Positions 33,958 to 62,011 of a stretch of 64,000 nucleotides of DNA are shown here, in pieces. This DNA is from Zygnema cylindricum (lineage: Eukaryota; Streptophyta; Zygnematophyceae; Zygnematales; Zygnemataceae). Within the stretch, counting starts at the first letter, position 1, and each line of letters starts with the position of its first letter. A model generated the notes under the pieces. It did no database searches. It was not told the origin of the DNA and worked only from the letters and a program-made list of their open reading frames with translations. The stretch lies in contig JBBHKE010002381.1 of assembly GCA_037447655.1 (NCBI GenBank), forward strand, positions 1 through 64,000, given 5' to 3'. A program made the position numbers and the translations under genes.

Positions 33958-34962
33958 TGCAATTCTGTGTCCTCCATTGGACTACAGAATACAGGAAGCC
34001 TCTAGATAGTATTTAACTAACCCACTTTAAGCCACGACCACTTCTGCCAAGAAGGCAAACTGAGAATTTGACTGCATCCCTGTGTAGCCTGGACTCCCCT
34101 GAGTCCGTAGCAAAAAGAATCACTGAAAAAGGCCAACCAGGCGATAAGTTATGAGCCGGCAAAAAAATGCCAATTTATACAAAGCTCTCTTAGAGAGAGG
34201 TGTCTGTCTACCAAATATTTCCTAAGTCCTAAATCCCTCTCACAACCCCTATCTACTAAAGTACGAACCAATCGTATTACTGTAAAGTACAGAAAGGTAC
34301 TATGGCCGATGTACTTTCTGTACGGCCGGTGTACGACAAGGCTCTTGAGTGGACGCGTGTCATTTTTCCACTTGTCCGTATTTCCTCCGGAATTCCCGCG
34401 ACCGAATGTCATCCTTCCACGCGGCGCCACGTCATGCCACGTCCATAAAATCCAAAGTGACCATTCCGCGATCTCGGCGACGACGTGCGCCGTCGGATTA
34501 AATGCGACATTAAATGTCGACCGTTCAAAGTGTCTGTTTCATTTGTTTCGTGCGAAATGACGTTCGCACTAAACCTTAACAAGTTCTATGTTCGTTTCGT
34601 TTCATATTCTAGTTAGATCATTTCGGTACTATACAATAGTTTATATATGAATGAAACCCTATATCATCTAACGAACTTCTACGACAGACTGGATAGAGCT
34701 AACGGCTATGCCGTGCTCTACCGGTCGGGGGTTTGAGTCCTGCCGGACTCAACCTTTTGTTGAGAGTGACTTAAGTCACTCTTTAGTCCTTCTTATGGCG
34801 CTGAGGCAGCCATGGCTCCATCGCTCTCTCTCTCCTTCAGTGACTACAACAAGTATGGGGAAAAGAGAGAAGAGATGGAGGCAGGCTGCCATCATATCTT
34901 ATATATGTTTCCGCTAATTTATTTTAAACTAGAAAATACAAAAAAAACTACTTATTTCAACA
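33958..34962 (-). repeat. 3' LTR of Cop-A copy 2
   Basis: The minus strand begins TGTTGAAATAAG at 34962, after the polypurine tract, and ends GAATTGCA at 33958, giving TG...CA ends. Length 1005 bp. Confidence 0.92.
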
Positions 34963-34975
34963 CTCCCCTTATTTT
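34963..34975 (-). other. Cop-A copy 2 polypurine tract
   Basis: The minus strand reads AAAATAAGGGGAG just before the LTR start, identical to copy 1. Confidence 0.8.
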
Positions 34976-37900
34976 CTAGTCTATCTTTAATTTTTCTTTT
35001 AATCCACATTTTTCCCTGCAGTATTTTAATTTTGGCGAGGGTACAGGTTTGGTCATCATGTCCGCTACCATTTCCTCATCAGATCTATATACAAGATTCA
35101 CTATTTTATTCTCAACTTTTTCTCTTACAAAACTTAATCTTATGTCCATATGTTTAGCTTTAAAATGATGTTTTGGATTTGCTGCAATTGCTATGGCCGC
35201 TTGATTATCACAAAACACTTCATGCACTCCCTCCTTCATATACCGAAGTTCTTGCAGCAAGGACTTGACCCACATCAACTCTTTCACAGCAGAACAAGAG
35301 GCCATGTACTCAGCCTCCATGGTGGACTGTGCAACCACCTTTTGTTGCTTACTGCTCCAACAGCATGCACCTTCCCCAACATACAACACATACCCAGAAG
35401 TGCATCGTCTCATAGGTGCGTCCCCATAACTGGCATCACTCCAAGTAGTGATGTCAGTGTGCTCTCCTCCCAAATGCAACCATAACTCTCTGGTTCCAAC
35501 CAGATATCTCATGACTCTCTAGGCTGCCTCCCAATCCCTCTTCGTAGGATCATTCAGACTCCTACTGAGTACTCCAACTGCTGCCGCTATGTCCGGCCTG
35601 GTACAATTCATAAAATAGATTAAACTTCCTACGACCTGTCTATAAGGGATAGTCTTCATAAACTCTCTCTCTTCAATACTCATTTGATCATCTAAGATAA
35701 TTACTCCTCCTTCTACACTCCCATCACTTACTTTTTTCAAGTCCATGGGAGTGGTACAACTGTTAGCATTTTCCATCTGGAATTTCTCAAGCATATTACC
35801 TATTGCTTCTTTCTGAGTAAGTCTGATAATCTTCTTCCCCCTATCTCTCTCCATCTGAATCCCCAAAATATATTTTGCCTCCCCTAAATCCTTCATATCA
35901 AATCTGCTTCTAAGTTCTGTTTTTAACTTATTGATCTTTTCCAAGGATTTACTCAACACAAGCAGATCATCCACATAAATTGCAATAAAAATGACACCAT
36001 TCTCATAATCAAACATATAGATAGAATGGTCAGAGCTTATACGGATATATCCCAGACTGGTAAGAAACTCATCTAGTTTCTTGTTCCACTGTCGGGGAGC
36101 CTGCTTTAGTCCATATAAGGACTTTATGAGCCTGCAGACTTTGCTCTCTTCTCCTTCCTCCACGAACCCCTCGGGTTGTCTCATGAAAATTTCTTCCTCA
36201 AACTCACCATTAAGAAACGCAGTCTTAATGTCCATCTGATGGATTTCCATGTCTTCCGCTGCTGCCAGGCTGAGGAGAATCCTTACTCATGGGAACCGAA
36301 CAACTGGAGCAAAGGTCTCCTCATAGTCAATCCCTTCCTTTTGGGTGAACCCCTTCGCTACCAATCGAGCCTTATATCTTTCAATGGTATTATCTGGGTT
36401 CAGTTTTAGTTTAAATACCCATTTACACCCAATAGGTTTTCTGTCTGGAGGACAATCTGCTAATTCCTAGGTATTTGCTTCCATGATAGAAGCCATCTCA
36501 TCATTTATAGCTCTAATCCATCTTTCTTTCTCTGGACTATTCACTGCCTCCGAGTAAGACTGAGGCTCATCAGGGTGAGATAGCTTAGTTACCTTATGAG
36601 CGACTTGTTTTTCCTGTAATCTTTTGCTGCTCCTTCTTCCTCCCTCAAACTCTAAAGCAAGAATGGATGGAAGTCTTGGATTTCTTCTCACTGTTTCATC
36701 GGCTCCCCTGTCCATGGAAACCGGTTCTTGTCCCGCTTCTTCTATCTCCTCGAAGTCTATAGGAGTATGTGAGGTTTCCGGTGAGTCTCCTGTATCTTGG
36801 ATCTCCCCTGAATCTGTAATCACGGTGTCACCCATATCCCTTTCGGGAACGACCGAGTTCTCCTCACTTTCAGACTCAAATCTGATCCTAATCTTCTTTG
36901 TATATTTGAGTGGGTCAAATGACTTCCCTTCATCCATGACAACTAAGTGTTTGACCAGAATAATATCTTTCTTTGCCAAGTCATATTCTCTATATCCCTT
37001 AACATCCTCATCATATCCCACAAAGTATCCAGGTTTTCCCTTAGCATCTAGTTTCCAGTTTTTCCTATCCGTGTCAAGACTGTAAACTTGGCTACCAAAT
37101 ACTTTAAGGTGTGAGATATCTGGTTTCCTTCCAACCCATCTCTCATAAGGTGTGACTCCCTTTACAGCTGAGGTGAGGACTCTATTCTTAATATAGTTGG
37201 CACAGTTCATTGCCTCTGCCCAAAATCTCTTTCCTATTTTCTTGTCTGCCAACATACTGCATGCACTATCTCCTAGTGTTCTATTCAACCTCTCAGTTAC
37301 CCCATTTTGTTCCGGGTTATATGGTACAGTTTTCTGGTGTTGCACTCCCTCATCTCTCAGATATTCCTCAAACTGGTTAGAGGTATATTCCCCCCCATTA
37401 TCACTCCTTATCCTCTTAATAAGGGTTTCATGCAACTTCTCACTCCAAGCTTTATATTCTTTGAAGTAAGTGGATGCTTCAGACTTATTTTTCAGAAAGT
37501 AGACTCTAGAGTATCTAGACTAATCATCAGTTATTGTCATCATAAACCTCTTTCCTCCAATCGAAGGTACTTTTGCAGGTCCCCAAATATCTGTGTGGAC
37601 CAAATCTAACACTTTCTCACCTCTATATGTGGCGGCTTTGGGAAAGGGAAGTCTATGAGCCTTACCTTGAGCACAACCACTACAATCATCCATTATTTCA
37701 TTATCCCCAAACTGAATGCCATCTACTATCCCAAGCTTTTTCATTTCCCTTAACCTATCAAAATGTACATGCCCCAAACGCTTATGCCAAATCATCACCT
37801 TAGGAACACCAACATAGTAAGCATTCTTCTTTTCTTTACTCAAGTTAAGCCTAAACATTCCTTGGCTACCCTTATCTGCTGTGAAGTAAACTTCATTCCC

Positions 37901-39325
37901 ATACTTAGCAGTAAAGACTCCCTTTCTAGTGAAGGTATCAAACTCTCTGTCATCTAACACAGACGTAGAGACAAGATTTTAACTCAGCTGAGGAATGTAA
38001 AGTACATCTGAGAATGTAAGTATAGAGGTCTTACCCTCCACTAAGACTTTCAGATCTACTGATCCCACTAGATCTGTAGTAACCACTCTCCCATCCCCAT
38101 ACTCTATCTCTACAGTAGGAATCTTTCGTAGCTTAGTGAAGAGTTCTTTATCACGACACATATGCATGGATGCACCTGAGTCGATGATCCATCCTTCCTG
38201 TGGAGCTTCCCGAATTGCTCCAAGGGCACACTTATGCCTCCGAGGGATCTCCTTCTCCTCCAGACTCTCGTCAAGAAGAAGCTCCCCATCCTCGTCAGAT
38301 GACTCATCCTCGATTTCTCCTGACACTTTTGTAACCACAAGTGATTTTTTCTTCCTTCCGAAAGAACCCCCTCCACGGTTTTCTTGGAGCCTCAGCTCTG
38401 ACAACTTGACACAATCTGCAATAAAGTGTCCCGGCTTTTTGCAATAATGACAAAGACCCTTTGGGGGCCTCTGTCCCCCAGAATTATCTCTTTCCCCTCT
38501 ATAAGGTTTCTTCGGATCCTTCCCCCATCGGTCCCCTCCTGCTGCTAGAGCTTGAATGCTCTTTCCTCCTCTCCTAATCTCCATTGTGTTTTCCTGCACA
38601 AGTATCATCCTGACTACTGTGTTCCATTTCCATGAACTATCAGGCATTCCCTGTACTCGGTACACTATGTTTTCGAACTCATCTGGTAATTTCATGATAA
38701 GGGTGTTAACTTTCATTTTCATTGTACCTGTCCACCCGGCACTTTCCATTTCCATGTACAAACAAGAAAGATCATTACAGTAATCTAACATCTTTCCTCT
38801 TTTGTAAGTGTAACTCAATAGTTTTTGCTCAGCCAACTGGAGCTCCTGAATAGTTCCAGCTCTATAAATCTCCACCAAACTCTCCCACAATTCCTTTGCC
38901 TTGTAAATGTGAAGATGAGGAGTGGCCAAACCTTGAGTGAGGTGCCTCAAAATGAAGTTCTTGGCAGCCATGTTTACATCCTCCCACATTTGAGTATCGT
39001 TCTCCACGGTCTTCACGGTCGCCGTTCCCGATACTGTGGCAATAGGAGTGAGGGGTGTCTCCTTCCCTTTCTCCTTTTCGGACACACTGCTGTCCCCATC
39101 ATCTGCCTCCTCCGCTGAGGCACCCGTTGTTGCAGAAAACCTTACTCCCCCAAATCCTGGTGGAGTTCCCGAAGGTGGACGTTTCACTTGTCCACTGACG
39201 ATACCCTTGTATCGTTTTTCACACAAAGCTCCCATCATCATGGCTTCCCAATAGATGAACCCAGATCCATTGAAGGTGGGCACCCTAGAGGGTGGGCCCA
39301 TAACCTGCAATTCTGTGTCCTCCAT
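34976..39325 (-). pseudogene. Cop-A copy 2 gag-pol, one frame with nonsense codons
   Basis: The whole polyprotein lies in a single frame, as in copy 1, starting MEDTELQVMGPPSRVP with the ATG in the LTR. Zinc knuckle CHYCKKPGHFIADC, protease IIDSGASMHM, integrase zinc domain IWHKRLGHVHFDRL, second catalytic Asp in RSDNGGEYTS, RT YVDD, and RNase H MEAEYMASCS with CDNQAAIAI are all visible. Five in-frame stops break it, near 37979, 37520, 36467, 36283 and 35519. Two of them (37520, 36467) are TGG to TAG changes. No frameshift is needed to read from end to end, so loss of function was by point mutation. It matches copy 1 through most of its length apart from a variable, acidic integrase-RT linker. 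Confidence 0.93.
39291..39305 (-). other. Half-tRNA primer site, Cop-A copy 2
   Basis: The minus strand GGTTATGGGCCCACC lies directly after the LTR end at 39306, identical to copies 1 and 3. Confidence 0.88.
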
Positions 39326-40314
39326 TGGACTACAGAATACAGGAAGCCTCTAGATAGTATTTAACTAACCCACTTTAAGCCACGACCACTTCTGCCCAAG
39401 AAGGCAAACTGAGAATTTGACTGCACCCCTGTGTAGCCTGGACTCCCCTGAGTCCGTAGCAAAAAGAATCACTGAAAAAGGCCAACCAGGCGATAAGTTA
39501 TGAGCCGGCAAAAAAATGCCAATTTATACAAAGCTCTCTTAGAGAGAGGTGTCTGTCTACCAAATATTTCCTAAGTCCTAAATCCCTCTCACAACCCCTA
39601 TCTACTAAAGTACGAACCAATCGTATTACTGTAAAGTACAGAAAGGTACTATGGCCGATGTACTTTCTGTACGGCCGGTGTACGACAAGGCTCTTGAGTG
39701 GACGCGTGTCATTTTTCCACTTGTCCGTACTTCCTCCGGAATTCCCGCGACCGAATGTCATCCTTCCACGCGGCGCCACGTCATGCCACGTCCATAAAAT
39801 CCAAAGTGACCATTCCGCGATCTTGGCGACGACGTGCGCCGTCGGATTAAATCCGACATTAAATGTCGACCGTAAAAAGTGTATGTTTCATTTGTTTCGT
39901 GCGAAATGACGTTTCGCACTAAACCTTAACAAGTTCTATGTTCGTTTCGTTTCATATTCCAGTTAGATCATTTCGGTACTATATAACAGTTTATATATGA
40001 ATGAAACCCTATATAATCTAACAGACTTCTACGACAGACAGGTTAGAGCTAACGGCTACGCCGCGCTCTACCGGTCGGGGGTTCGAGTCCTGCCGGACTC
40101 AACCTTTTGTTGAGAGTGACTTAAGTCACTCTTTAGTCCTTCCTATGGAGCTGAGGCAGCCATGGCTCCATCGCTCTCTCTCTCTTTCAGTGACTACAAC
40201 AAGTATGGGGGAGAGAGAGAAGAGATGGAGGCAGGCTGCCATCATTTCTTATATATGTTTCCGCTAATTTATTTTAAACTAGAAAATACAAAAAAAAAAC
40301 TACTTATTTCAACA
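39306..40314 (-). repeat. 5' LTR of Cop-A copy 2
   Basis: 1009 bp with TG...CA ends on the minus strand. It closely matches 33958-34962 and the separate LTR at 25332-26383. It contains the gag start codon 20 bp before its end. Confidence 0.92.
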
Positions 40315-40319
40315 TATTT

Positions 40320-41450
40320 CTCACACACGCGCGGTATTCTGCACGCACGCGCGGTATTTTGTATGCACGCGCAGTTTAAGGCACGCGCGCGCGGTTTTAT
40401 GCATGCACGCGCGGTTTGATGCATGCACGCACGATTTTCGCACGCATATATAAGTTTCGTTCTCACGTGCGATTTAATTCCGATTCATATTTTTAGGTTT
40501 CATTGAGTAGTACTAGTTTCGTGCGATATGTTTTATTTCGTGCGTAGGTACACGATTTTCGAAGTTGGACCCGAAACATCGTTTGGGCGACGTGACGCGA
40601 TTTCAAGTATTTCGTGCTAGACCTTTTATTTTGTGCGATATGGTTCGTTTCGTGCGGTATGTTTCGTTTCGTGCGTATGCACGCGATTTTAGGAGTATCG
40701 ATGTGAAGTATCTTTTGGAGGCGTATCGCGATTTCCGGGCGACGCTTCGATACATATATTTATTTAAGTCGCGAACCCATGTAGGTTCGCGCGCATGTAG
40801 TTACGGAGGGATTTTACCCTCGGACAGTGGATTTTGTCAAGCGTACGGCAGACGATATTGGCCGCCTATTGGCCAACATCTTTAGTAGTTTCATGCATGT
40901 AAAGTAGACTAGACGTAGGCTAATTTTGCTTAGGCCTAGCGTAGCTCTTACTTAGCCTAATTCTCAGACTTAGAGAATTTAGCTTTTGGACAAGAATTTT
41001 CTCTTGGCAGCGGAGCTTTTCTCTTGCTCTCTCTCTCACCGATTGCTCAAGTTTCTTCCTTTCTTTTGCTAGCTAGCTGTAGAGGCTAGATAGTTTACGT
41101 ACATTCTTCCTTGTAATTCTGCCCACGCTTTTAATCCACGCGGCTCAAAGCCAAGTCCGGAAGGTTTCCCTCCAACTTGTGTCATTTTTGGGAAGTGGTG
41201 GATTGGAGTTCGTGTGGAGAAGCATCCGGATCCGGCTGCCCTTCCCACGGACAGCTGGACGGTTTGGGTGTTTGTTTTTGTGTTGTTTGAATTTTTGGTT
41301 GGGAATGGAAGGGTGAATTTTGGCCGAATTTTGAGTTTTCCTTATTTTTGGTTGGAATTATTTATTTTGCTTCGTTGCTTTCGTACGAGATAACTCTAAT
41401 AAAGAATACGTTGAAGACCCAAGAGCCTAGTGGCTACCTTGTGGCTTAGT
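40320..41450 (+). repeat. Gyp-C repeat A1, main part
   Basis: It continues A1 after the nested element and aligns with 46160-47291. It begins with a minisatellite of GCACGCGCGGTATT-like units (40320-40445) and ends GTGGCTTAGT at 41450. At 40981-40997 it holds AGCTTTTGGACAAGAAT, the exact reverse complement of the bases just after the repeat. Confidence 0.88.
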
Positions 41451-41467
41451 ATTCTTGTCCAAAAGCT
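41451..41467 (+). promoter_or_regulatory. Candidate self-primer site of Gyp-C
   Basis: ATTCTTGTCCAAAAGCT lies directly after repeat A1, where a primer site belongs. It is not like any tRNA end I know, but is a perfect 17-nt complement of 40981-40997 inside A1. Tf1/sushi-type Gypsy elements prime from their own folded RNA 5' end in this way. The role here is inferred. Confidence 0.5.
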
Positions 41468-43139
41468 CCACTTTTTAAAATCACATTTTCTAAAAGTCTA
41501 TTTTTTTAATATTAAATTATTAAAAATATAAATTTTATTTCATTAAAAAAATATTACTTTTCAAATTCAGTTTTTATTCTTGTGTTTGTCTTCCCATTTT
41601 CCTGCCTATTTACCTTTCATTTTCAGTTTTACTTCTCAGTTTTGTGTGATAAAATAAAGCTAAAGAAAAAAAAATATAAAAATTTCATTTTTTTCAATAT
41701 AAAATCTATCTTTTCATTTCTAGATTTTCTTCCACCTTTTATTTGAGTTGGTTTTTTTTTCCTTTCGATCTAGCTTTATTTTACTACAAGCTTCATTCTA
41801 CTTTCTCTCTATATTTGCTTTCGCTTTCAGTTTTGCCTTGGGAAAATATAATATAAAAATAATTTAATTTATATATTTTATTTTATAAAAAAAATAAAAA
41901 CATTTTGTTTTGGTTTTTTGTTTTCTTCTTTCGTGCTTTCAATTCTTGTCTTCTATCTTGCTTTCACTCTATTTCTGGTCTGCAGATTTAGGTCTGATTT
42001 TGTGTCAGATTTTTAGGGTTTTTCTGCGAAATTAGGGTTTGGCCGCAGATTTAGGGTTTTGGCCGCAGATTTAGGGTTTGGGCGGATTTAGGGTTTATTT
42101 TTTGGAATTCTTAACCCTAGGTCAGCATATTACCATCCCTTGGTCGCAGATTTTTGATTTTTGCAGCGTGGTATTAGGGTTTGAGAAACCTTTTTGCCCA
42201 ATTCTACCTTATTTTGTGTTTTATTTGAACTTTCCTGAATATTTCTTATCTTTCTTTCCTTTAGTGCAACTTCCTTTGCTGTCTAGTTGATGTTTGGTTT
42301 GTGGTGGATTTTATATTCTCTTTCTTTATCCTTTGACAAATCTAATCATTCATAAAACCTAGCAAAGTAAAAATATATATTCATATATATTAGAATTGCA
42401 CGAATTATAACATATAATTATCATTGCTTTATAGTTGGGTATAGCGTGGCATAGCGCTGATACGCATACCCTAACAGGATACTAATTGCATGGGTGTTTA
42501 GTGGTGATCTTGGGTACGATTAATCGGAACCGAGGCGGATCACATTCCTAAGGACTCTGCAAAATCCGACTTGCTTCAACCAAGTCTGGTTCACTTTTAG
42601 TACTCACCAGAGTATTAAAAGTGTTTGTAAGTATCCCGATGCCTTGCGGGTACAGGTTCGTCACGATATAGTGTGGACACTCGTGTAGAGGGATCGGTGT
42701 GGATTGGTTCTATTACGAACCTTTCTTTTTGAGCATTTGCATTTTCCTTGCTTTCCTTGCATGCTATCTGGCCGTGAGTGGCCTTGAGTTTCCCTGTGAC
42801 TATCTGGATTGGATGACTATCTGGATTGGATTTATTTTTATAGATCTTGCCGTGGGTGGCACTGTTTAGACAATTTTCTGTCTGTGCCGCTGTAGATCTG
42901 CACCGAAAGGTGCTTGGATAGTTCTGTGTTTGTTTTTATAGATCTGGCCCTTTGGCCTTGCCCCATTGTTTGCAGGGTAGAGGTTTTGGTATTTCGGCTT
43001 TTTGCTAGATCTGACCACCGGGTCTTGATAGAGATTTCGGGTGTTAGCTTGTCTTGTGTGGTTTGGCCTTCCATTTGACGCACCTCGATAAGGCCGTTCC
43101 GTTCTTTCCTAGTCGTAATCGCGGGTTTTCCCTTCGTTT
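41468..43139 (+). other. Gyp-C untranslated leader
   Basis: No gene is supported. The leader is AT-rich to about 41950, then has 'gcagatttagggttt' repeats (42000-42092), and then AGATCTG-containing blocks (42830-43030) that also appear, diverged and inverted, at 7370-7800. A long leader before gag is common in Gypsy elements and can hold packaging signals. Confidence 0.55.
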
Positions 43140-43685
43140 ATGCCCACGGATTGGGATAACTTACGTTATCAATCCGGATCTACCCGCGGCGGGACAGTTT
43201 TCCGTCCACCGCAGTTAGATCTTTCTAGTTTCTCCGAGTCTACGGACGCACCAGTTTCGGTTGCAGCCCCTAGATCTCCGTCAGTCCGGTTAGTATTGAC
43301 CACAGTCTCATCATTATCCTCAGTTTCCTCTAGGTCATACCTAGATAGAACCGAAAGAGACTTTTCAGAGGATACCTTTTCCGATCCTCTCACATTTCCG
43401 TTTTCGGTCGGTCCATTTTTGGAACCACTAGTGCATTATTCCTTTGACGACATGGCTTCCTCTTCAGATGGGGGCATGGGGAAAATGCAATTTTGCTTTT
43501 CAGGGATGAAGGATACCATGTCTTTATCCCATTTCCGTATGCTCTATAATACCGAAATGCGTGATTTGGCATTTAGCTATCAAGATCGATTTGATCTTCG
43601 TGTGCATTTTCTCTTCTTGGTCGGTACCTTAGAGGTTCGACCCTTACATTATATTCCCGCAAGTATGATGCGATACTCGCGATGA
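43140..43685 (+). CDS. Gyp-C first gag frame, Ser/Thr-rich N-terminus
   Basis: A 181-residue frame beginning MPTDWDNLRYQSGSTRGG. It is Ser/Thr-rich up to about residue 75, then has SFDDMASSSDGGMGKMQFCF. A broken relative occurs at 944-1250, so the region is conserved in the family. It ends at a stop that overlaps the next start as ATGA (43682-43685), so the two frames could be coupled by reinitiation, or a one-base change may have split one ancestral gag. No known domain is recognised. It probably contributes the N-terminal part of gag. Confidence 0.6.
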   Translation: MPTDWDNLRYQSGSTRGGTVFRPPQLDLSSFSESTDAPVSVAAPRSPSVRLVLTTVSSLSSVSSRSYLDRTERDFSEDTFSDPLTFPFSVGPFLEPLVHYSFDDMASSSDGGMGKMQFCFSGMKDTMSLSHFRMLYNTEMRDLAFSYQDRFDLRVHFLFLVGTLEVRPLHYIPASMMRYSR

Positions 43686-45850
43686 CAGAATTTTCCCCTC
43701 CTTTTGCTGGTACACCCAAGGTCATAGGTCAAGCGGATGTTCCATACCAGGCCGCTTTTCCCGAGGTCTTAGATGCCAAAGGTGTTGTCCTAATTCCCGC
43801 AGTCCCGGAAATTCCTCGCCAATACGCTGTGGCCGCTCGTGCTGCTTTCCCAGCACGACCACGGATGATAATTCCATTACGGGATCCACTATCTGTTATG
43901 GTCGATTTCTTAGAAGCCGAGTATCGGATGCAAAACCCCGATCAGGTGAAAGAATTGATGAATTTCACGCGTAAACCAGGAGAAACTGCCCCTGCTTTAC
44001 GTGCTCGCATGGAGACTTTACGAGAAGCTTTACCGGACCTAATGTCTGATGCGGAAGCTGTTCAAAAATTTGTTGGACAGTTTCCAGATCAATCGAAACG
44101 TTTTATACAAAGTCATCTCACTCAGACTTACGGTCTGAAATTTACATTTGATCAAGCCGCTCAATACGCGGTAGAATATGAGATGCAATCATGTTGGTGG
44201 GAAGCTCATGATCGTTCGGAAGTCGCTTCCCCACTTTCTCCTCCGAGGAACCCGTGGCCTTCTAATAGGGCTCCAAAGACGCCGGCCATGGGAAATCCAC
44301 CATTTAATTCCGGAGACCGATTGTGTTTCCGATGTGGAAACACGGGGCACGATGCTCGCATGTGCCCGGATAAGTCGGCCACATGCACCCATTGCAACCA
44401 GAAGGGACATTATGTCCACCGTTGCCACGTTAAGGATCCTAATTTTTCCTATCAGAATCAGATTCAGAACGGTGGAATTCCCGCCGGTTCTGCCAAGCCG
44501 GTCACTCCTCCTACCAAGACAGAGAAAGAGGCGACTCCCCCTAAGATCTCTCGAAGAGAGAGGGAAAAGGCCGAGTTACAAGTTATGATGGCCGCCATGA
44601 TGAAGGAGCAATTCGTTGCCTTCATGGCCGAAATGAAACCCCAGTTCACGGGGATGGCAAGGACAGTCGTCCACACGCCATCGTTGGTTGGTCGAATCCT
44701 CCGGGATTCCACGGTCCAACAACGGGCAGCCACTTTCGATAAGGGATCCCCTGATCATAATCGGGACGGTAAATTACAGAATTCCCGTATTCCACTTTCT
44801 TTCGAGAAAAAATCTCTCTCTCCTCTGCCAGACACAGCTTCCTCCATTGTGGCTGAAGCTCTCACCATTCTGGATAGTACTATACATAAGGCACATCGAG
44901 TCAAAGAACGGCTAAGCATCCTGTATGCCATGATTGATGAAGCCCTCGGGGCCTCTCCCTTTCCTAATGAGGTCCCCAAAGCCTCTCCCGTTGTTGATGA
45001 GTTCGCTGCAGGCGCCGCTTTGAGAGCGTTGCAACTGAACTGTAGTCTTTCCGTTATTCAGCTGGTTACCGCGGATGAGCGCCGTGACCTTGATCCTCAC
45101 ATCAGTTTCCTGGACAATTCTCGAATGTCCTTCTCCATTAATGTTGTTTCTCCTTCTCTCCCTCTCATGGACACTGGAGCCAAACCCGTGATCCTTGGAT
45201 CAGGATTTGCGCTCAAGCTTGGTCTGACAGCAGACAAGCTCAAAGCCACGTCTACTCGGCTTCTTACTTCAGCCGGTACCACGGAGTCGGTGCTTGGAAT
45301 TACCAAGGACCCGCTTGTCTTTCGGTTTCACAACGGAACCGAGAGTGAGTCCGTAGAAGTTTCTGTCCGAGCATTGGTCACCAAATCAAAAGACTACGAA
45401 TGCTTAGTGGGACAGGATGTTATCTTCCGAATCGGTGGAGGAGTAGATATGCATGATCAGACCTTCTCTTACCGTCCCTCTAATTTTCGAGGTCGCAAAA
45501 TCTGCCTCCCTCTTGTCTCTGCTCGCAAGCCGTTGCCCACTATGGCACATTTGGCTTCCGCTCTCCCTGCATTTTCCAGTATCGAACTTCGGAAAGACAA
45601 TGGCGACTCGTTTTTCTCGAAAAGGATCCATACCGTCGATACCGAGGTCTTTCCACACATTCTCAATGTGGTGGATAGCGATACTAATGGGATGTTGAGT
45701 TTAAAGAGTGTTTATGCATGTACAAGTGGTGATCAAGGGTTCCACATGGAGTGCCTCTCTTCTCCATTATCTTTCAACCCGGCTGACCATTGCTACCTCC
45801 GTATCGGTTCTAAGCCCTCAGCTTTGTTGACCAGCTCCCCCACAGGCTAA
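43682..45850 (+). CDS. Gyp-C gag-protease with PHD-derived tail
   Basis: An uninterrupted 722-residue frame. Residues about 40-190 form the gag core (FLEAEYRMQNPDQVKELMNF, SHLTQTYGLKFTFDQAAQYA). Two CCHC knuckles follow, CFRCGNTGHDARMC at 215-228 and CTHCNQKGHYVHRC at 235-248. A retropepsin domain has LPLMDTGAKPVILG with catalytic Asp497, ending at GRKICLPLVS. The sequence then jumps straight to what in Gyp-E is the end of integrase (HTVDTEVFPHILNVVDSDTN) and part of a PHD finger (GFHMECLSSPL). RT, RNase H and integrase core are absent, yet the frame is kept. It could supply particles and protease, but depends on a partner for copying and insertion. Confidence 0.85.
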   Translation: MTEFSPPFAGTPKVIGQADVPYQAAFPEVLDAKGVVLIPAVPEIPRQYAVAARAAFPARPRMIIPLRDPLSVMVDFLEAEYRMQNPDQVKELMNFTRKPGETAPALRARMETLREALPDLMSDAEAVQKFVGQFPDQSKRFIQSHLTQTYGLKFTFDQAAQYAVEYEMQSCWWEAHDRSEVASPLSPPRNPWPSNRAPKTPAMGNPPFNSGDRLCFRCGNTGHDARMCPDKSATCTHCNQKGHYVHRCHVKDPNFSYQNQIQNGGIPAGSAKPVTPPTKTEKEATPPKISRREREKAELQVMMAAMMKEQFVAFMAEMKPQFTGMARTVVHTPSLVGRILRDSTVQQRAATFDKGSPDHNRDGKLQNSRIPLSFEKKSLSPLPDTASSIVAEALTILDSTIHKAHRVKERLSILYAMIDEALGASPFPNEVPKASPVVDEFAAGAALRALQLNCSLSVIQLVTADERRDLDPHISFLDNSRMSFSINVVSPSLPLMDTGAKPVILGSGFALKLGLTADKLKATSTRLLTSAGTTESVLGITKDPLVFRFHNGTESESVEVSVRALVTKSKDYECLVGQDVIFRIGGGVDMHDQTFSYRPSNFRGRKICLPLVSARKPLPTMAHLASALPAFSSIELRKDNGDSFFSKRIHTVDTEVFPHILNVVDSDTNGMLSLKSVYACTSGDQGFHMECLSSPLSFNPADHCYLRIGSKPSALLTSSPTG

Positions 45851-45865
45851 GGAGCTGGGGGGGGG
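45851..45865 (+). other. Gyp-C polypurine (poly-G) tract
   Basis: GGAGCTGGGGGGGGG follows the stop codon and directly precedes repeat B1. Gyp-E has the same GGAGCTGGGGG tract at 56596-56613. It is the likely plus-strand primer. Confidence 0.75.
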
Positions 45866-46056
45866 AATTATTGGGTTCACTTCACTCTAGGGGAGTGTTC
45901 TTTCCCTTCTTTCTTGGGTCATTTTCACCTTTGTTTTTTCTCATGGTGTATATATTTTTCCGACTTTTCATATTTATTTCCGTTGTTGTGTATGTTTGTG
46001 AGCATGACTTTGCCGGTTGTGATGCATGTTTGCTTGCTTGCTTCTCATGCACGACA
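45866..46056 (+). repeat. Gyp-C repeat B1
   Basis: 191 bp from AATTATTGGGTTCAC to CATGCACGACA. It is roughly 95 % identical by eye to B2 (47294-47484). It is joined to A2 by GC, forming the palindrome GACAGCTGTC. Confidence 0.85.
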
Positions 46057-46058
46057 GC

Positions 46059-47291
46059 TGTCATGCAGCATCGTGTCGGCGGCTCGCTCGCACGTTATCA
46101 TGCACGCACGCGCGGTATTCTGCACGTACGCGCAGTATTTCTAATGCACGCGCAGTATTTCTCACTCACGCGCGGTATTCTGCACGCACGCGCGGTATTT
46201 TGTATGCACGCGCAGTTTAAGGCACGCGCGCGCGGTTTTATGCATGCACGTGCGGTTTGATGCATGCACGCACGATTTTCGCACGCATATATAAGTTTCG
46301 TTCTCACGTGCGATTTAATTCCGATTCATATTTTTAGGTTTCATTGAGTAGTACTAATTTCGTGCGATATGTTTTATTTCGTGCGTAGGTACACGATTTT
46401 CGAAGTTGGACCCGAAACATCGTTTGGGCGACGTGACGCGATTTCAAGTATTTCGTGCTAGACCTTTTATTTCGTGCGATATGGTTCGTTTCGTGCGGTA
46501 TGTTTCGTTTCGTGCGTATGCACGCGATTTTGGGAGTATCGACGTGAAGTATCTTTTGGAGGCGTATCGCGATTTCCGAGCGACGCTTCGATACATATAT
46601 TTATTTAAGTCGCGAACCCATGTAGGTTCGCGCGCATGTAGTTACGGAGGGTTTTTACCCTCGGACAGTGGATTTTGTCAAGCGTACGGCAGACGATGTT
46701 GGCCGCCTATTGGCCAACATCTTTAGTAGTTTCATGCATGTAAAGTAGACTAGACGTAGGCTAATTTTGCGTAGGCCTAGCGTAGCTCTTACTTAGCCTA
46801 ATTCTCAGACTTAGAGAATTTAGCTTTAGGACAAGAATTTTCTCTTGGCAGCGGAGCTTTTCTCTTGCTCTCTCTCTCACCGATTGCTCAAGTTTCTTCC
46901 TTTCTTTTGCTAGCTAGCTGTAGAGGCTAGATAGTTTACGTACATTCTTCCTTGTAATTCTGCCCACGCTTTTAATCCACGCGGCTCAAAGCCAAGTCCG
47001 GAAGGTTTCCCTCCAACTTGTGTCATTTTTGGGAAGTGGTGGATTGGAGTTCGTGTGGAGAAGCATCCGGATCCGGCTTCCCTTCCCACGGACAGCTGGA
47101 CGGTTTGGGTGTTTGTTTTTTTGTTGTTTGTATTTTCGGTTGGGAATGGAAGGGTGAATTTTGGCCGAATTTTGAGTTTTCCTTGTTTTTGGTTGGAATT
47201 ATTTATTTTGCTTCGTTGCTTTCGTACGAGATAACTCTTGTAAAGAATACGTTGAAGACCCAAGAGCCTAGTGGCTACCTTGTGGCTTAGT
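46059..47291 (+). repeat. Gyp-C repeat A2
   Basis: 1233 bp, the right-hand copy of A1, from TGTCATGCAGC to GGCTTAGT. It holds the GCACGCGCGG minisatellite (46085-46280) and CATATATTTATTTAAG, a possible TATA region (about 46592-46607). Confidence 0.88.
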
Positions 47292-47293
47292 AT

Positions 47294-47484
47294 AATTATT
47301 CTGTTCACTTCACTCTAGTGGAGTATTCTTTCCCTTCTTTCTTTGGTCATTTTCACCTTTGTTTCTTCTCATGGTGTATATATTTTTCCGACTTTTCATA
47401 TTTATTTCCGTTGTTGTGTATGTTTGTGAGCATGACTTTGCTGGTTGTGATGCATGTTTGCTTGCTTGCTTCTCATGCATGACA
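47294..47484 (+). repeat. Gyp-C repeat B2
   Basis: 191 bp matching B1 and ending GCATGACA at 47484, followed by TATTTG. This TATTT matches the bases at the left end of the element (33852-33856). Confidence 0.85.
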
Positions 47485-55168: not shown

Positions 55169-55410
55169 TTGTGCATGACAGTACCACCGTGAATGGCATG
55201 CATCACATCTCGCGTGGGTCGTCGAAAAACACCTGAAAATGAATGACCATTACATATGTACAGTATTTGTGACCACAATCGGAGGACAAAGCATATGTAA
55301 TGCAAGAAATAATAAATGAATCAGCCAGGAAAGAAACAAATTATTCAAAACACATGGACTTAGCAAGGAAAAAAAAAGACAAAATAAGATCAGGTAATAA
55401 GGATGGAATT
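55169..55410 (-). repeat. Gyp-E repeat B2'
   Basis: It matches B1' (56352-56595) at about 94 % by eye. On the minus strand it starts AATTCCATCCTTA and ends GTCATGCACAA, where Cop-D LTR sequence begins. Confidence 0.8.
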
Positions 55411-56349
55411 TGCGACAATACCCTATATGCTCTGAAGTCTTTTAATATTCCCTACAGGAGTCCAACCAGCGGACCAGAAACCTTCCCTAACCGGTTGAAG
55501 GAGCCGAGATAGCCGGTATTCCCACAAAGCCGGACAGGATTGGAACTAGACCGCCAAGTCAGCTTTGACAGTAAGAAAACACCAAATCCGCACACCACAA
55601 TTCGTGCACCACGACAAGTAGAACACAGTCTGGAGGGAAACCTTGCAGGTTGGCTTGCGCCGGTAGATTAGGTTAGGTCTTAATACAAAGAAAACGAGAA
55701 GCTCACAGACAATTACTAGCATGAAACTATGGGTCTAAAGAAGGAAAAACCTTTACTCAAAAACTAGCCTGTCACTAAATATTTAGGTGAAACCCTAACA
55801 GTAGAGTTCGACAAATCCCGAGAAAAATGCTTGTCAGTGAACGACAACCTTCCAATGTTGATTTCCCGTACTTAATTTGCAAAAGTTACCATCTCGCCGA
55901 TTGGCATTTATCCTATGTTTTCACTAATCTGTACGGCTACCCTAATTCCTACATGTTTCTCAGCAGGCAGGTTTCTATGTAAAAACGCTGCCAGTTTCAA
56001 GAGACGACTGCTGCGTGGCTGCCTCAGACTGCCTTACACCTACACCTCGAGGATGAAAACCCTCCGTAAGCTAAGCAAAAATGATGCATGAACCTCTAAG
56101 GGTTCATGACTTCTGACACCTGTCAGGAGGTTTGTAGCTGTTTGAATTCCTGACATCTGATGCCGTACCGTGGTCCAGTTCCAAGCTGATTTCACATTGT
56201 GTTCTCGTAGTTCCATACGAGAGTATATTTCGACCTTTGTCCCGTACGAATCTCTAGTTGTACTCTCGGGTATGTACCTGTCACGTCACTGAAACTTCAA
56301 TTAGTACACGATTTAATCACAATACCCGCTGACGTCTTACGATATGATA
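55411..56349 (-). repeat. Gyp-E repeat A2'
   Basis: 939 bp between B1' and B2'. The minus strand starts TATCATATCG after GACAGC, comparable with TGTCATGC after GACAGC in Gyp-C. Its A1 partner is not in the window because the 5' end is lost. Confidence 0.7.
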
Positions 56350-56351
56350 GC

Positions 56352-56595
56352 TGTCGTGCATGACAGTACCACCGTGAATGGCATGCATCACATCCCGCGT
56401 GGGTCGTCGAAAAACACCAGAAAATGAATGACCATTACATATGTATAGTATTTGTGACCACAATCAGAGGACAAAGCATATATACTGCAAGAAATAATAA
56501 ATGAATCTCCCTGGAAAGAAACAAATTATTCGAAACACATGGACTTAGTAAGGAAAAGAAAGACAAAACAAGATCAGGTAAGTAAGGATGGAATT
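56352..56595 (-). repeat. Gyp-E repeat B1'
   Basis: It directly follows the poly-G tract and ends CATGCACGACA, as Gyp-C B1 does. The sequence itself is otherwise different from Gyp-C B1. Confidence 0.8.
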
Positions 56596-56613
56596 CCCCC
56601 CCCCCCCCAGCTC
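56596..56613 (-). other. Gyp-E polypurine (poly-G) tract
   Basis: GGAGCTGGGGG with 13 G follows the stop of the last frame, as in Gyp-C. Confidence 0.75.
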
Positions 56614-56614
56614 C

Positions 56615-57469
56615 TTAGCCTGCGGGGGAGATGGTAAGGACAGCCGGTAGGTCGTGACACCCGTGGCAAAACCATTGTTCAGCCGGGATAGTGTGCAGAG
56701 GTGGAACCAAACTCTCCATATAGAACCCCAAATTGCAATAATCGCAGAGAAGCATTAGTGTTTCTCCATCAGATCGCCGACACAACTGACACTCAGTGGC
56801 CTCAGTAATCAGCATCCGCCACGGGTCCTTGCTGTGGGAAAGGTCGAGTAGATAGAAAGGAGCACAATTTTTCGAATGCTCCCGCAAAGTTCGCGTGTCG
56901 GCCCCTTGTAAGCTTAATAATCCATTGGCGTCGATTTTGGTTATCCTCAAAATATGAGCCAAAACATCGGTGTCGAGTGTGTCAAAATTTTGCCGCCGCA
57001 AATAAACATTACCCCCCACCCGGAAGGGTTTTTGTTTTTGCCGGTAGCTGCCACTGCGAGTCATCGCAAACTGTAAGGAGTCGCGATATTGGGCAATCTG
57101 CAAGTTTTCAAAGGCAATGGGCATTTCTCTAGCAAAAAGCAACGCTCGGTTAGTTAGTTCTTCCAAAAACAGAGAATCAGACATAAGAGGTAAAGGTAAG
57201 CTCGCGGCTTTCTGTACATTCCTACCTAGTAGTGGTTTTCGACCAAACAAGACATAATAGGGGCTGAAATTTGCCAAGCTGGCCTGTACAAACATGCGAT
57301 AACCCATGACAATATATCCCAATGATTCATCCCACACTGTAATCCGTTTTTTTAAGCAATGTTTACGCAAAGCACGCTTAAAGGTTTGTAAAGCTCTCTC
57401 CGCCAAACCGTCTGCTTGAGGATGATCTCGGCTCGTCCGCCCGTGATCGATAAACGCCTCATCCAACAT
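56615..57469 (-). pseudogene. Gyp-E integrase C-terminal half with PHD finger
   Basis: A 284-residue frame. It starts in the integrase core: DHPQADGLAERALQTFKRAL holds the catalytic Glu. The integrase C-terminal part follows (YVLFGRKPLLGRN, PFRVGGNVYLRRQNFDTL, HILRITKIDANGLLSLQ). Residues 226-271 form a PHD finger: CQLC, CDYC, then GFYMESLVPPL and WFCHGC. In PHD fingers, which commonly read histone tails, GFHMECL is expected; here His is Tyr and Cys is Ser, but the Gyp-C copy retains GFHMECL. The finger takes the place where chromoviruses carry a chromodomain, so a role in choosing chromatin targets is inferred. Confidence 0.82.
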
Positions 57470-58140
57470 CTCTTAAAATTCGCTCCGAAACTTGGTTCCT
57501 TGGTCTGTAAGTACTTTTGCGGGGGCTCCATATCGGAGGAGCACGTGCTCTTTAAAAGTTGCGGTGGTAAGTTTGGCAGTTTTCTGCGAGAGTGCCACAA
57601 CTTTCACTCATTTACTGAAATTCTCTATCATTATCATGATGTATTGTTTGCCCCTTCGAGAAATGGGAAAGGGACATGCAAGATCACACGACCACCTGTA
57701 AAAGAGACCCTGAATAGGCAAGGGCTGAAGGGAGGTCTGTCGGTTAGAAAATGAAGTTCGTAGCCGGTCACATGTGTTGCATTCTTGCAACACAGCCGCC
57801 ACATCAGCCTGCATGCCGGACCACCAATACTGTGCCTGTACCAAACTCAAAGTCTGTTTGGTGCCATAGTGTCTAAGGTCAGTTTGAATTTGGTTGATAA
57901 GTGATAGTCGTTCCGTCGGCCGTGGGACATGCCGGTGACTTCCATCTGAGAGAAGACGAATAAGTGAGCCCCCCATCCATAAGTAATTTTGGGCTCTCTT
58001 ACAAACACGCTCCTCTTCCATTGGTAGGATGCCCGTCGAAAAGACTGAGTAGATTGAAAAAGAATTATATCACTGTCTCGCCATGGATTGTGTTCCGTTT
58101 TGTGGTTTGTCGGTGTTGCAAAACACTAAATCAAATGTGC
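57470..58140 (-). pseudogene. Gyp-E integrase zinc domain and first core half
   Basis: The piece 57608-58021 has an HHCC zinc domain, with His residues in LRHYGTKQTLSLV and Cys in LQECNTCDRLR. YRWSCDLACPFPISRRGKQY follows with the first catalytic Asp. In the next frame KVLTDQGTKFRSEF (about 57480-57520) holds the second. All three catalytic residues are thus visible across the pieces, but a frameshift near 57600 and a stop near 57470 separate them. The enzyme would insert element DNA. Confidence 0.85.
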
Positions 58141-59049
58141 TCCGGCTGATAAGGAGGCAACTGATTCATCATCAAAATCTTGTCGTACACCGTTATCATT
58201 AGAGTGGGGCAAAGGGTTCCTTGAGAGGCCGTCGGTATTCAAATTGAGGAGCCCGGGTCGATGGATTATTTCCATGTCATATTCCTGTAAAATAAGAGCC
58301 CAACGGGCTAATTTGCCGAATAACTTGTCATTGGTCATAAGCCAATGCAATGCTTGATGGTCAGTAAGAAGCGTAAAAGGTTTGCCATAAAGATAATGTC
58401 GGAAATGCACAATACCCCAAACTGTGGCAAGGCATTCTCCCTCGTAACTACTGTAATTTGATCCCGCTTGATTATTGCTTCTACTGGCGTAAGCCACCAC
58501 ATATTCCTCACCTGTAAGTTCGCGTTGAGTTAGGATAGCGGCAATACCGGGCTTACCAAAGTTAGTCTGTAGACAAAACGGTAATTTATGATTTGGGGGA
58601 CGGAGGATGGGAGCGGTAGACAGTGCGTCCTTTAATCCTTGAAATGCCTCGATCTGAGAGGGTCCCCACGTGAACGGAACTGATTTCTTCAATAGTTCAT
58701 TTAATGGGGATGCAACTGTGCTGAAACTGGCGACAAACCGCTGATAATAATTGGCTAACCCTAGAAATGCACGCAGGCTAGTCAAATCAGTTGGAGCCAG
58801 TAGTTTACTAATTTCTTCCACTTTGACTTCTAGCGGAGTAATTCCCTCAAATGAGATAAAGGGCCCAAGGTATGGAACCCATTCGGCCCCAAATGTACAT
58901 TTGGCAGGATGACATTTAAGTCCTACCTTTTTTAATTCCATCAACACCCACTCTATATGCACTGCATGTTCCTCTATAGAGGCTGAAGCGATGATTAGAT
59001 CGTCAATATAGCAACGGGCAAACTTACATCCCCCCAAGACTGAGTCCAC
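58126..59049 (-). pseudogene. Gyp-E RT C-terminal part and RNase H
   Basis: A 307-residue open piece. It begins in the RT palm: CYIDDLIIASASIEEH has the active site YIDD. LRAFLGLANYYQRFVASFS and PLNELLKKSVPFTWG are the usual Gypsy RT connection. RNase H follows with QTNFGKPGIAAILTQ, where the first Asp has become Asn, SSYEGECLATVWGI with the Glu, and LLTDHQALHWL with the second Asp. It ends with HRPGLLNLNTDGLSRNPLP. Separated by one stop from the upstream RT piece. Confidence 0.9.
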
Positions 59050-59055
59050 AACTTT

Positions 59056-59985
59056 TTAGAACTCTGCCGGTGCATTTTTCAGTCCGAAAGGCATAACCGC
59101 CCATTCCCAACGTCCGTCACTACCCCAAAATTCAGTTTTGTGTCGATCTTTTTCTTCTACTTCGATTTGATTAAATCCCTGTCGCAGATCTAAGATGCTA
59201 AAATAGTTAGCTCCGCCCACGTGATCAAAAATGTCCTCGGCCAACGACATTGGATGTCGGTCCTGGATTGTACGTGAATTCAGTTCTCAATAGTCCCCAC
59301 ACATGTGACGTTCTGTAAAATCCCCCTCTGAGTCTTTTTTACAGGGCATGACAGTGGGCACCGTGAAGGTGGAATTAGACCTATAAATCAAACCTGCCTC
59401 TTCTAACTCTGCGCATCGTTTGGTTACAGATTCCCATTCAGTATCGGATAGGCGATGCTTGGGCTTAAATATAGGTCTGTCATCTTCCAAGTCAATAGAC
59501 ATTTTGTAAGTGGTGTGTCGACCTAAGTCTTTCATGGAGAAAGGAAATGCGTCTACGTTTCGGTTTATGACTTCATTTAACAGTTCGTGTTCAATTTCTG
59601 TCAGTCCAGTTCCGAATTTCCATGTCGGTTTTTCAGGCGTGTTAATGGTCATAGCTTCTATGGCTTGTGCAAGTGCCAACTGTTCATCTGCTATCAAGGA
59701 GTGACCCAACTCATATTCGACAGGAAGTTGATGCAAACAATTTACTGCGTGATGCCAACGTCTAGACGGAAATGCAGCTGTCCAGTGTGGTGATGCCCGT
59801 ACTAGTACCTGAGATCGAGCGGCCTTGTATGCTGGGATAGACCAACTCATTTGACTAGGTTCCAAAAAATCATAAACAGTGTGATCTGTGTCACACTTAG
59901 CGGGAAAAGGAAAAAGATCGAGCTGAAAAGTTGTACCCCAAAGAGAAGGTGAGGATTTGGATGCTGTATCTTTAAATGGAGTATG
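59056..59985 (-). pseudogene. Gyp-E RT N-terminal part
   Basis: Two pieces. The first (59287 to about 59985) has PTWKFGTGLTEIEHELLNEV, YKMSIDLEDDRPIFKPKHRL, and ELEEAGLIYRSNSTFTVPTV, ending RHMCGDY, typical of the start of Gypsy RT. The second (59056-59250) carries ANYFSILDLRQGFNQIEVEE with the first catalytic Asp, and WAVMPFGLKNAPAEF. One stop lies between them. The join to the methyltransferase is at a run of Cs near 59990, which shifts the frame. Confidence 0.88.
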
Positions 59986-59997
59986 CCCCCCCCCCAG

Positions 59998-60990
59998 CTG
60001 ATTGAGAAGGATTGATCTGTGCGTATAGGCCAGCTGCAAACCCCATGCCAAAGACGAATGACAATGATTGGGGGTCCATGACTCGACCAAGTAAGATGCA
60101 GCGGTGCCGCTCGGTGAGTCCCAGAGTAGCAGTGGTGCCTGAGATGAAATGTAAAAGATGTTCTTGTTCTGCGGCAGTAGGTTGTTATAAGCTGCCTGTA
60201 TGAGTATTCTGAAGCATGCCCGGTCCATTTTGTGAGTATGCGTGAGAATGTGGATATGCAACTAGTGTAGGTTGTGCACGTAATGGTTGGCCCGGGATCT
60301 TAAGACCAAATGCAAGAGGATAGTCTGTCTGTATACATTTCTGGACCTTATGAAATGGAAGAAGTGCATCCTGAATGGAATGGTTAGGTGGTCGGACTGC
60401 GAGGTTAGCTTCTCGGAGCTGACCCATGTCCACCAGGTTAGTCCACTTGGAACGAACCCGGTAGGCCAACGAACTGTGGCGTGCGGCATCGATAAATAAC
60501 GGTGGTCCAATCAACGATTCAATGCGTTTGTAATCTGCGAGAACCGTGGGTTGGGGATCGTTATAAGCTGCGATATTTTCTAGGATGTATCCGAAAGGAC
60601 GATCCAGTTTTTAGAAAAAGTGGATCAGACAAACCACCTTGAAAAATCGCGTAGTACACGGATCTGCGAGACTTAAACCTTTCTCGACCCTAGACATACC
60701 CTGACATTCCCATCCGGCAAAAAAGAGATCAATTGGTTCTAATTCCATTAAATGATGATTTCCTATTAGCCGGATATCTTGTGGCAACGCCGAATGCATA
60801 TCGTGAAACGCAGACTGGGGTAAGAGATGAGGATAATGTTCGTGCAAGACCTGACAGTGGTGCAACAGAGCGCGTCTAGCCAAGGGGTCAATATCTACGG
60901 AATAGTAATGCTTTATCAGAAGACCGTTTCGAAGGCAAGAAAGAAGTGAAGTCCTTGTTCCTGCAAAAAGGTCTAAGATAACAAGACCGT
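59998..60990 (-). pseudogene. Cytosine-5 DNA methyltransferase domain inside Gyp-E
   Basis: The domain transfers a methyl group from S-adenosylmethionine to cytosine in DNA. Motifs are in the standard order. Motif I is LVILDLFAGTRTS (near 60982). Motif II is YYSVDIDP. Motif IV is LFFAGWECQGMSR with the catalytic Cys (residue 239 of the piece 60611-61420); its usual Pro before Cys is Glu. A stop at 60611 follows. Motif VI is ILENIAAY, and motif VIII is YRVRSKWTNL preceded by LFIDAARHSS, an arrangement recalling DNMT3 (IDAKEVSAAHRARYFWGNL). After another stop near 60185, EQEHLLHFISGTT and ERHRCILLGR resemble motifs IX-X. It lies between protease and RT in the polyprotein frame. Two stops inactivate this copy. 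Gyp-C lacks it. Confidence 0.85.
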
Positions 60991-62011
60991 TTTGGTGAGG
61001 TTGTAAATTTACCGATGTCCATTTAATGGGCAAGAACCCGAAAAAATCTATCGTAATGGAGGGAGGATCTGGAATACTAGATAAAGGAATTGGTATAGTA
61101 AATTTATATAGTCGGTCAAAATTTGAAGAGTCAATGGTAAATCCGGGTGTACTAAATAATTCTGGTAAACTCGGGGAATCTGGTGAGATTTCATCCACTG
61201 TTAGAGATTCAAAGATGTCTGCACCTATGCCAATTGCGGCATAGGCTGGCAAGACTAGCGCCGAATGGGCCGTGGTAGGCATGGGTTGCAGGGCCAAGAT
61301 AAGGGGTAAGCAAATTTTACGTTCCGGAAAGTTGTTAGGTCTGTACGAAAATTTTTGATCGTGCATATCAACCCCCCCCCCCCCCTTACGCTGAAAATTA
61401 CATCTTGGCCGACAAGGCATTCATAATCACTACACTTGGTGACCAAGACGTGGGCATATATTTCTACGAAATCTGTCTCTGACTGACTCTAAAACTGGAA
61501 ACAGACTGGTTCCTTTGTAATTCCGAGGACCGATCCTGTGGTACCTGCGAAAGTCAACAGACGTGTGGTAGTGGGTTCTAGCTTTTCTGTTGCAAGACCT
61601 ATTTTGATTGCAAAATCTGAACCGAGGATAATTGGCTTTACGCCTATATCCATGAGAGGAAGTGCCGGAGCAAACCCATTCACTGTGAACACGCCCAATT
61701 TGTTATATAGAAAACTGATGGAGGAGTGAGGCTAGAACGCCCTTCAAAAGTAATAGCTCGAAGGGATAGAGCATGACGATGGTTTGTAATGACTGTAACG
61801 CAACCGCTGAAGGAGTAAGATCTACATGTTTTTCGTTGATATCCAACTCCGGGAGCATGGTGGACAGGATTGACAAACGTTTTTTGACCTTATAAGTGTC
61901 TTGTATGCTCCTCTTTAGGATTGTTAATGCTTCAGCGGTGATGCTAGATGCCGTATCTAGAATCGGTGAGCGGGGTTCTTTAGCAAATGATAGTGGGATA
62001 CGTGTGTTGAT
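60991..62011 (-). pseudogene. Gyp-E protease and end of gag
   Basis: The sequence matches residues about 360-620 of the Gyp-C protein. From the cut edge at 62011 it reads TRIPLSFAKEPRSPI and DTASSITAEALTIL, then the retropepsin LPLMDIGVKPIILGSDFA (61489-61698), where the DTG active site is DIG. DYECLVGQDVIF follows after a frame change. A run of 14 Cs at about 61372-61385 breaks the frame before VDMHDQKFSYRPNNF, which resumes in 60611-61420. The protease would cut the polyprotein. The rest of gag and the 5' repeat are lost. Confidence 0.82.

Follow-up and report, generated by a model that had tools for sequence, protein, structure and literature searches.

Retrotransposons that carry a cytosine methylase have already been reported, as Ty3/Gypsy and DIRS elements of green algae and charophytes in the available text of PMC6338049; the streptophyte examples are called Copia in that of PMC12344493. 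The closest known enzyme belongs to KnitGypsy-Dnmt3 of Klebsormidium nitens (de Mendoza et al. 2018, PMC5890265), an element that our literature search found named only in that paper. In the accessible parts of PMC5890265, to which all our statements on it refer, KnitGypsy-Dnmt3 combines a long terminal repeat (LTR) Gypsy Pol with a Dnmt3-type domain that is free of introns and of rearrangement, and SymbioDIRS-Dnmt3 of Symbiodinium is a DIRS element with a tyrosine recombinase. We investigated a related element in a 64,000-nucleotide stretch of Zygnema cylindricum DNA (the window; contig C1798 of a 352.8 Mb assembly). It is a decayed Gypsy-type element on the minus strand at 55171-62008, truncated at 62008 by a Copia element, and its parts run in the order gag end, protease region, linker, methyltransferase, reverse transcriptase (RT) and RNase H, integrase, PHD finger, and repeats B1-A2-B2. 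Cytosine methylation normally targets such elements, whereas here a domain of the type that writes the mark is encoded, in intact or broken form, at more than 200 places of a single genome.

By homology, the domain in the window is a DNMT3-like cytosine-5 methyltransferase. In intact sister copies it may well be an active enzyme that methylates the element's own new complementary DNA (cDNA) before integration. We took this role as the most likely one, at about an even chance, from the position of the domain and from precedent (PMC5890265).

A DNMT3-like domain inside a Gypsy polyprotein

Taken alone, the window copy was weak: its PF00145 match (E 0.085) fell below the cut-off, and phmmer against PDB gave no DNMT match. 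The low score is no longer a reason for doubt, because relatives matched strongly. With the unbroken window piece as query, two proteins were retrieved, P0001 and P0002, both with G-W-E-C-Q-G; P0001 aligned to the piece at E 8e-30 and, across 48% of the query length, was 49% identical to it. Of 7835 candidates in a profile search, 526 proved to be relatives (120 of the 526 were listed), and a search aimed at longer proteins found 19 among 7992 scored. An intact copy from the same genome, P0138 (locus L010, contig C1344), was 88% identical to the window copy, scored E 9.4e-13 against PF00145 itself, and matched DNMT3A at E 8.7e-11 and DNMT2 at E 0.2. The best profile and predicted-fold match of the domain was DNMT3, with motifs I-X unrearranged. 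A chance match was ruled out by the profile relatives, the same-genome matches, the DNMT3A match, and the fold match. We call the domain DNMT3-like because this lineage has Glu-Cys, not Pro-Cys, in motif IV. Candidate relatives in viral and genome contigs were pattern matches, none of them confirmed.

L010 also decided whether the domain belongs to the element. Its single 2395-aa frame matched, in order, the N-terminal (gag) part, protease, methyltransferase, RT, RNase H, integrase, and PHD finger of the relative P0122. Since the domain shares this unbroken frame with the other Pol parts, a neighbouring host gene was ruled out. The preliminary description, made from the window sequence, had placed a cytosine-5 methyltransferase between protease and RT as part of the element and had called for intact copies in the genome of origin; L010 bears out the first and supplies the second. 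Further copies were plentiful: the P0138 domain had at least 119 matches in the genome at 64-100% identity, a lower bound from the 119 of 1872 first-look candidates that were scored, and 22 of the 119, by a count made by eye, had no stop where they matched. A second lineage carried G-W-P-C-Q-G in motif IV, with the order methyltransferase, RT, RNase H, integrase, PHD in L013 and L014; the L019 frame stopped after RNase H. Its representative P0139 had 116 matches, which correspond to at least 115 places because two matches are parts of a single one, and by eye the two match lists had no place in common. The DNA pattern for G-W-P-C-Q-G matched exactly 201 times in the genome, and its reversed control 0 times. 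The parts of the window copy were as follows.

60017..61030, minus strand: DNMT3-like cytosine-5 methyltransferase domain with two TAA stops; 88% identity to intact P0138, motifs in one frame
60947..60985, minus strand: motif I, LVILDLFAGTRTS, minus frame 0
60692..60721, minus strand: motif IV, FAGWECQGMS, Glu before the catalytic Cys, minus frame 0
60611..60613, minus strand: TAA stop within the domain, read from sequence
60566..60592, minus strand: motif VI, GYILENIAA, minus frame 0
60434..60490, minus strand: motif VIII, DAARHSSLAYRVRSKWTNL, minus frame 0
60185..60187, minus strand: second TAA stop, read from sequence
60047..60169, minus strand: motif IX-X region, EQEHLL...LLGRVMDPQSLSFVFG, aligned via the family profile to the same region of DNMT3A
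61300..61743, minus strand: protease region, core LMDIGVKPIILGSDFA at 61609-61662; tblastn with the gag-protease open reading frame (ORF) of a sibling element, E 2e-38
61328..61384, minus strand: linker GGGGVDMHDQKFSYRPNNF, in a frame different from the protease core (sequence and sibling comparison)
61847..62008, minus strand: gag end, truncated by the Copia element, whose match starts at 62009; tblastn E 1e-12
59569..59628, minus strand: N-terminal RT flank, PTWKFGTGLTEIEHELLNEV, by frame reading
58129..59055, minus strand: RT end and RNase H; PF00078 E 3.6e-8, PF17917 E 1.9e-32
57608..58069, minus strand: integrase zinc-binding part (H2C2), PF17921 E 7.9e-12
57356..57472, minus strand: integrase core stretch, by homology to L010 and P0122 integrase
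56657..56791, minus strand: C-terminal PHD finger, PF00628 E 1.1e-6
56356..56595, minus strand: repeat B1, 93.8% identical to 55171-55410
55411..56355, minus strand: repeat A2, between B2 and B1 by layout, as in C1344
55171..55410, minus strand: repeat B2, by match to B1

Motifs I, IV, VI, VIII, and IX-X lie in linear order in a single frame, interrupted by the two stops, so the window copy is broken, as had been stated. The candidate motif IX-X was real, with its placement corrected: it keeps the frame of the other motifs beyond the second stop. The claimed in-frame join to the protease held in part. In the window copy the protease core is in frame 1 and the VDMHDQ... segment in frame 0, with the switch at a poly-C/G run near 61374-61386, whereas the two share one frame in the sibling (ORF 43595-45850) and in L010. 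The RT frame follows a further frame change near a poly-C run at about 59988. Pfam scans of the window copy matched neither the protease nor rve. The sibling, at 33856-47484 of the window, is non-autonomous, with the gag-protease ORF and a PHD-end remnant, and is split by a Copia element at 33958-40314; methyltransferase, RT, and integrase were not seen in it. A piece of a further gag from this Gypsy family, interrupted by stops, lies at 1219-1729 and is 60-80% identical to that of the sibling. Much of the window is occupied by related Copia copies and repeats, including an uninterrupted 1454-aa Copia gag-pol frame at 10689-15053.

P0122 (2358 aa) matched the window in order, with Pfam placing protease at 663-711, DNA_methylase at 953-1137, RVT_1 at 1443-1596, RNase H at 1660-1789, H2C2 at 1925-1977, rve at 1996-2090, and PHD at 2300-2344. 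Protease and methyltransferase were also joined in P0123 (both above cut-off) and P0058 (protease below cut-off). In P0004 and P0018 the methyltransferase ran into sequence resembling Gypsy RT by eye, for which Pfam gave no RT match. The Ty3/Gypsy order of protease, RT, RNase H, and DDE integrase was found in P0122 (Pfam) and L010 (BLAST with P0122 pieces), and Ty3 was the best PDB match of the A7 profile (E 6.3e-90). A second architecture, RT, RNase H, methyltransferase, H2C2, rve, PHD, was found by Pfam in P0124, P0125, P0126, P0128, and P0130 (the methylase match of P0130 and the rve match of P0125 below cut-off); P0129 was added by its motif IV position and P0127 by alignment. These rows formed one clade in both the methyltransferase tree (100/100) and the RT tree (100/98). 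P0133 (labelled Haematococcus lacustris) and P0135 (Chlamydomonas eustigma), both chlorophyte-labelled, fell in that clade in the 41-row methyltransferase tree and were assigned by tree only; P0132 is labelled Closterium sp. NIES-53. Its identity was 34-54% to the Gypsy copies compared and 23-30% to the Copia of the window, values that do not point to one and the same species. No tyrosine recombinase appeared among Pfam matches of the Pol proteins P0122 and P0124-P0130, all of which had rve; separate frames lay outside that scan. In P0124, residues 1184-1223 form a G-patch domain between methyltransferase and integrase, and the C-terminal ends of P0125 and P0129 gave weak PF02086 (N6-adenine methyltransferase) matches below cut-off (E 0.003-0.004).

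The Glu-Cys-Gln active site

Active-site residues were counted in the 137 relatives fetched, the other 406 profile-search relatives lying outside the count. The residue before the motif IV Cys was Glu in 131, Gly in 3, Lys in 2, and Asp in 1, and in the alignment with DNMT3A the Glu occupied the place of Pro in the PC motif. The catalytic Cys was kept in 132 of 137 and the motif VI Glu in 113 of the 127 with letters there. RxR and WTN of motif VIII were kept in the same-genome copies read. E-C-Q had been taken as a mark of a dead copy; with Glu in 131 of 137 relatives and an unbroken L010 frame, decay was ruled out as its origin, and E-C-Q reads as a family trait. In the same genome, E-C-Q was present in nine places of that lineage with the motif found (L004, same lineage, gave no match to the search expression), and P-C-Q in seven places of the other (L005/L009 being one place and L006/L014 another).

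In a methyltransferase tree rooted on DNMT3A (28 rows; dropped from the 41-row tree were, among others, the window copy along with the long rows P0132, P0137, and P0135), the E-C-Q sequences formed a single clade with support of 90/84 (not starred). When rooted on Ty3, the RT tree placed the P-C-Q lineage among E-C-Q lineages, and in the 41-row tree P0132 and DNMT3A joined as long branches. Because the methyltransferase and RT trees disagree on the P-C-Q lineage, any order, direction, or number of Pro/Glu changes drawn from them is tentative.

The conserved Glu also bears on what the domain does. It could be kept for binding nucleic acid or a partner and no longer methylate, as a DNMT3L-like structural domain that would hold cDNA or recruit factors; the Pro-to-Glu change itself, the looser constraint on the domain than on RT, and the inactivity of KnitGypsy-Dnmt3 in yeast, which its authors call inconclusive (PMC5890265), would suit such a role. 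The retention of the Cys and of the motif VI Glu at the frequencies above argues the other way, as do the conserved motifs I and VIII and the ordinary P-C-Q of the sister lineage in the same genome. DNMT3L, moreover, lacks several catalytic motifs. We therefore consider a binding-only role possible but rather unlikely. An altered motif IV could also accompany another substrate, so that the enzyme would methylate RNA (element RNA or the tRNA primer) as DNMT2 does tRNA; RNA methylation is brought up for the Symbiodinium LINE enzymes by de Mendoza et al. (PMC5890265). The best sequence and fold match was DNMT3 and not DNMT2, however, which makes an RNA substrate very improbable. If the enzyme methylates cDNA, the Pro-to-Glu change would tune rather than abolish catalysis, because the Cys, the motif VI Glu-Asn (most relatives), and RxR/WTN are kept. 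A conserved Glu beside the catalytic residue, in an active site otherwise mostly kept, amounts to a natural experiment on the workings of such enzymes; the chemistry of the domain itself is a prediction from sequence.

Integration, selection, and the C-to-T footprint

The C1344 copy has repeats A1 at 85514-86444, B1 at 94737-94978, A2 at 94981-95911, and B2 at 95912-96154. A1 and A2 were 100% identical over 931 bp and B1 and B2 99.6% identical, so this is a very recent insertion. It starts with TGTC, ends with GACA, and has TTGG on either flank, a 4-bp target-site duplication; the window sibling shows the same repeat layout and ends, with the duplication TATT. Both have DIRS-like A-coding-B-A-B repeats, and a complete LTR at both ends was absent, the C1344 copy having A only on the left and B-A-B on the right. 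In both of the elements examined, split DIRS-type repeats thus occur together with ends of the integrase type. The B1-GC-A2 junction of L010 (C1344:94957-95020) consists of element end, GC, and element start and resembles a joined-ends (circle) junction fixed within the element.

The domain is under purifying selection. The ratio of non-synonymous to synonymous substitution rates (dN/dS) had a median of 0.22 (range 0.13-0.41) in the 8 usable of 45 pairs from 10 distinct places with an unbroken domain, 35 pairs being saturated and 2 too close. Raw pN/pS was 0.19 for the domain in 13 E-C-Q pairs; RT gave 0.049 in 25 pairs and protease 0.24 in 34.

We then counted C-to-T changes by sequence context. 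For the window copy, 423 derived changes were scored over the 5093 sites at which L010 and L018 share a base; the C-to-T counts were 49/472 at CG, 59/491 at CHG, and 85/1448 at CHH (Fisher p 0.0012 for CG and 2.3e-5 for CHG). L018 gave 16/429, 17/444, and 20/1361 (p 0.009 and 0.006), and L010 gave 7/408, 4/409, and 18/1378 (p 0.48 and 0.80). Because of this excess at CG and CHG, the older copies look CG- and CHG-methylated, and the young L010 does not. The genome also contains a chromomethylase-like exon, probably of a host gene (L007, G000:C514:126680-126928), which matched PDB 4fsx, presumably maize chromomethylase, at E 8.8e-28. The decay in older copies and the large copy number would fit an enzyme acting in trans on host or chromosomal copies, silencing the family and limiting its copy number or rival elements. 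We find this quite improbable, since the CHG part fits the host chromomethylase and the footprint was compared among methyltransferase-bearing copies only; the youngest copy lacks a footprint, though age alone suffices to explain that.

Under cDNA methylation, the domain would travel with RT in the particle, adjoin the nascent cDNA, and add 5-methylcytosine, so that, on reaching the nucleus, the copy would carry the same kind of mark as the DNA already there. At the integrase end, the PHD finger would recognise histone tails and aid site choice. Chromosomal copies would then appear to gain CG and CHG methylation, probably from the host. The domain, part order, unbroken frame, copy number, purifying selection, and integrase-type ends with 4-bp duplications are what was seen, and the fold is predicted. 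Several points weigh against this role. Activity here is a prediction from sequence and fold, and KnitGypsy-Dnmt3 gave no methylation in yeast, although SymbioDIRS-Dnmt3 domains methylate CG there (PMC5890265). The selection test required sequences in which the frame stayed open across 90% or more of the domain, silent sites were saturated in 35 of the 45 pairs, and constraint is looser on the domain than on RT (pN/pS 0.19 vs 0.05). The CHG footprint suits a host chromomethylase, as in the L007 exon, better than a DNMT3-type enzyme, and was compared among the window copy, L018, and L010 only. Of 127 relatives, 14 lack the motif VI Glu, 12 of them having Lys instead. Because Pro before the catalytic Cys is, to our knowledge, near-universal in this enzyme class, the Glu may impair catalysis.

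More broadly, and tentatively, green-lineage Gypsy elements might keep a re-tuned Glu-Cys-Gln DNMT3 dedicated to marking cDNA, beside a Pro-Cys sister lineage in one genome and with the domain moved within Pol; the family would therefore have a methyl-marking system of its own, apart from the host's. With two lineages in one genome, an unbroken copy with identical repeats, and a CG/CHG footprint in older copies, the question of why an element should write the silencing mark becomes directly testable.

Comparison with described elements

With DNMT3A and DNMT3B, the domain shares the motif order I-X and the best sequence and fold match; it differs by the motif IV Glu of the E-C-Q lineage, by about 23% identity in structural alignment, and by PWWP and ADD, neither of which was among Pfam matches of the 17 element proteins scanned (E up to 0.01). 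The plant DRM methyltransferases are DNMT3 kin and gave a weak profile match (4onj, E 1.9e-4), but their methyltransferase domain is rearranged (PMC5890265), whereas the order here is linear. SymbioDIRS-Dnmt3 resembles the element in its Dnmt3-type domain within Pol, in one frame with RT, and in its split repeats; intact relatives here have a DDE integrase (rve) in place of its tyrosine recombinase.

KnitGypsy-Dnmt3 is closer. Beyond its Pol and unrearranged domain, it shares repeats in DIRS layout with Gypsy domains (PMC5890265, Fig. 4 legend) and a domain under purifying selection. The DNMT3-like motif VIII had suggested a separate capture; because Gypsy Pol, Dnmt3-type domain, and DIRS-like repeats are shared, common descent appears at least as likely. 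As described, the two are set apart by the 4-bp duplications, TGTC..GACA ends, and at least 119 (E-C-Q) and 115 (P-C-Q) places; they may also differ in motif IV, which here is E-C-Q for one lineage but P-C-Q for the other, and in the C-terminal PHD finger. The fixed active-site change and the further structural variety are without description in the accessible text of PMC5890265, and no literature search was aimed at the E-C-Q motif. On the published description, then, the Zygnema element and KnitGypsy-Dnmt3 are of one kind, the former residing in another genome of greater size (352.8 Mb assembly vs 104 Mb for K. nitens NIES-2285 in the available text of PMC9915684).
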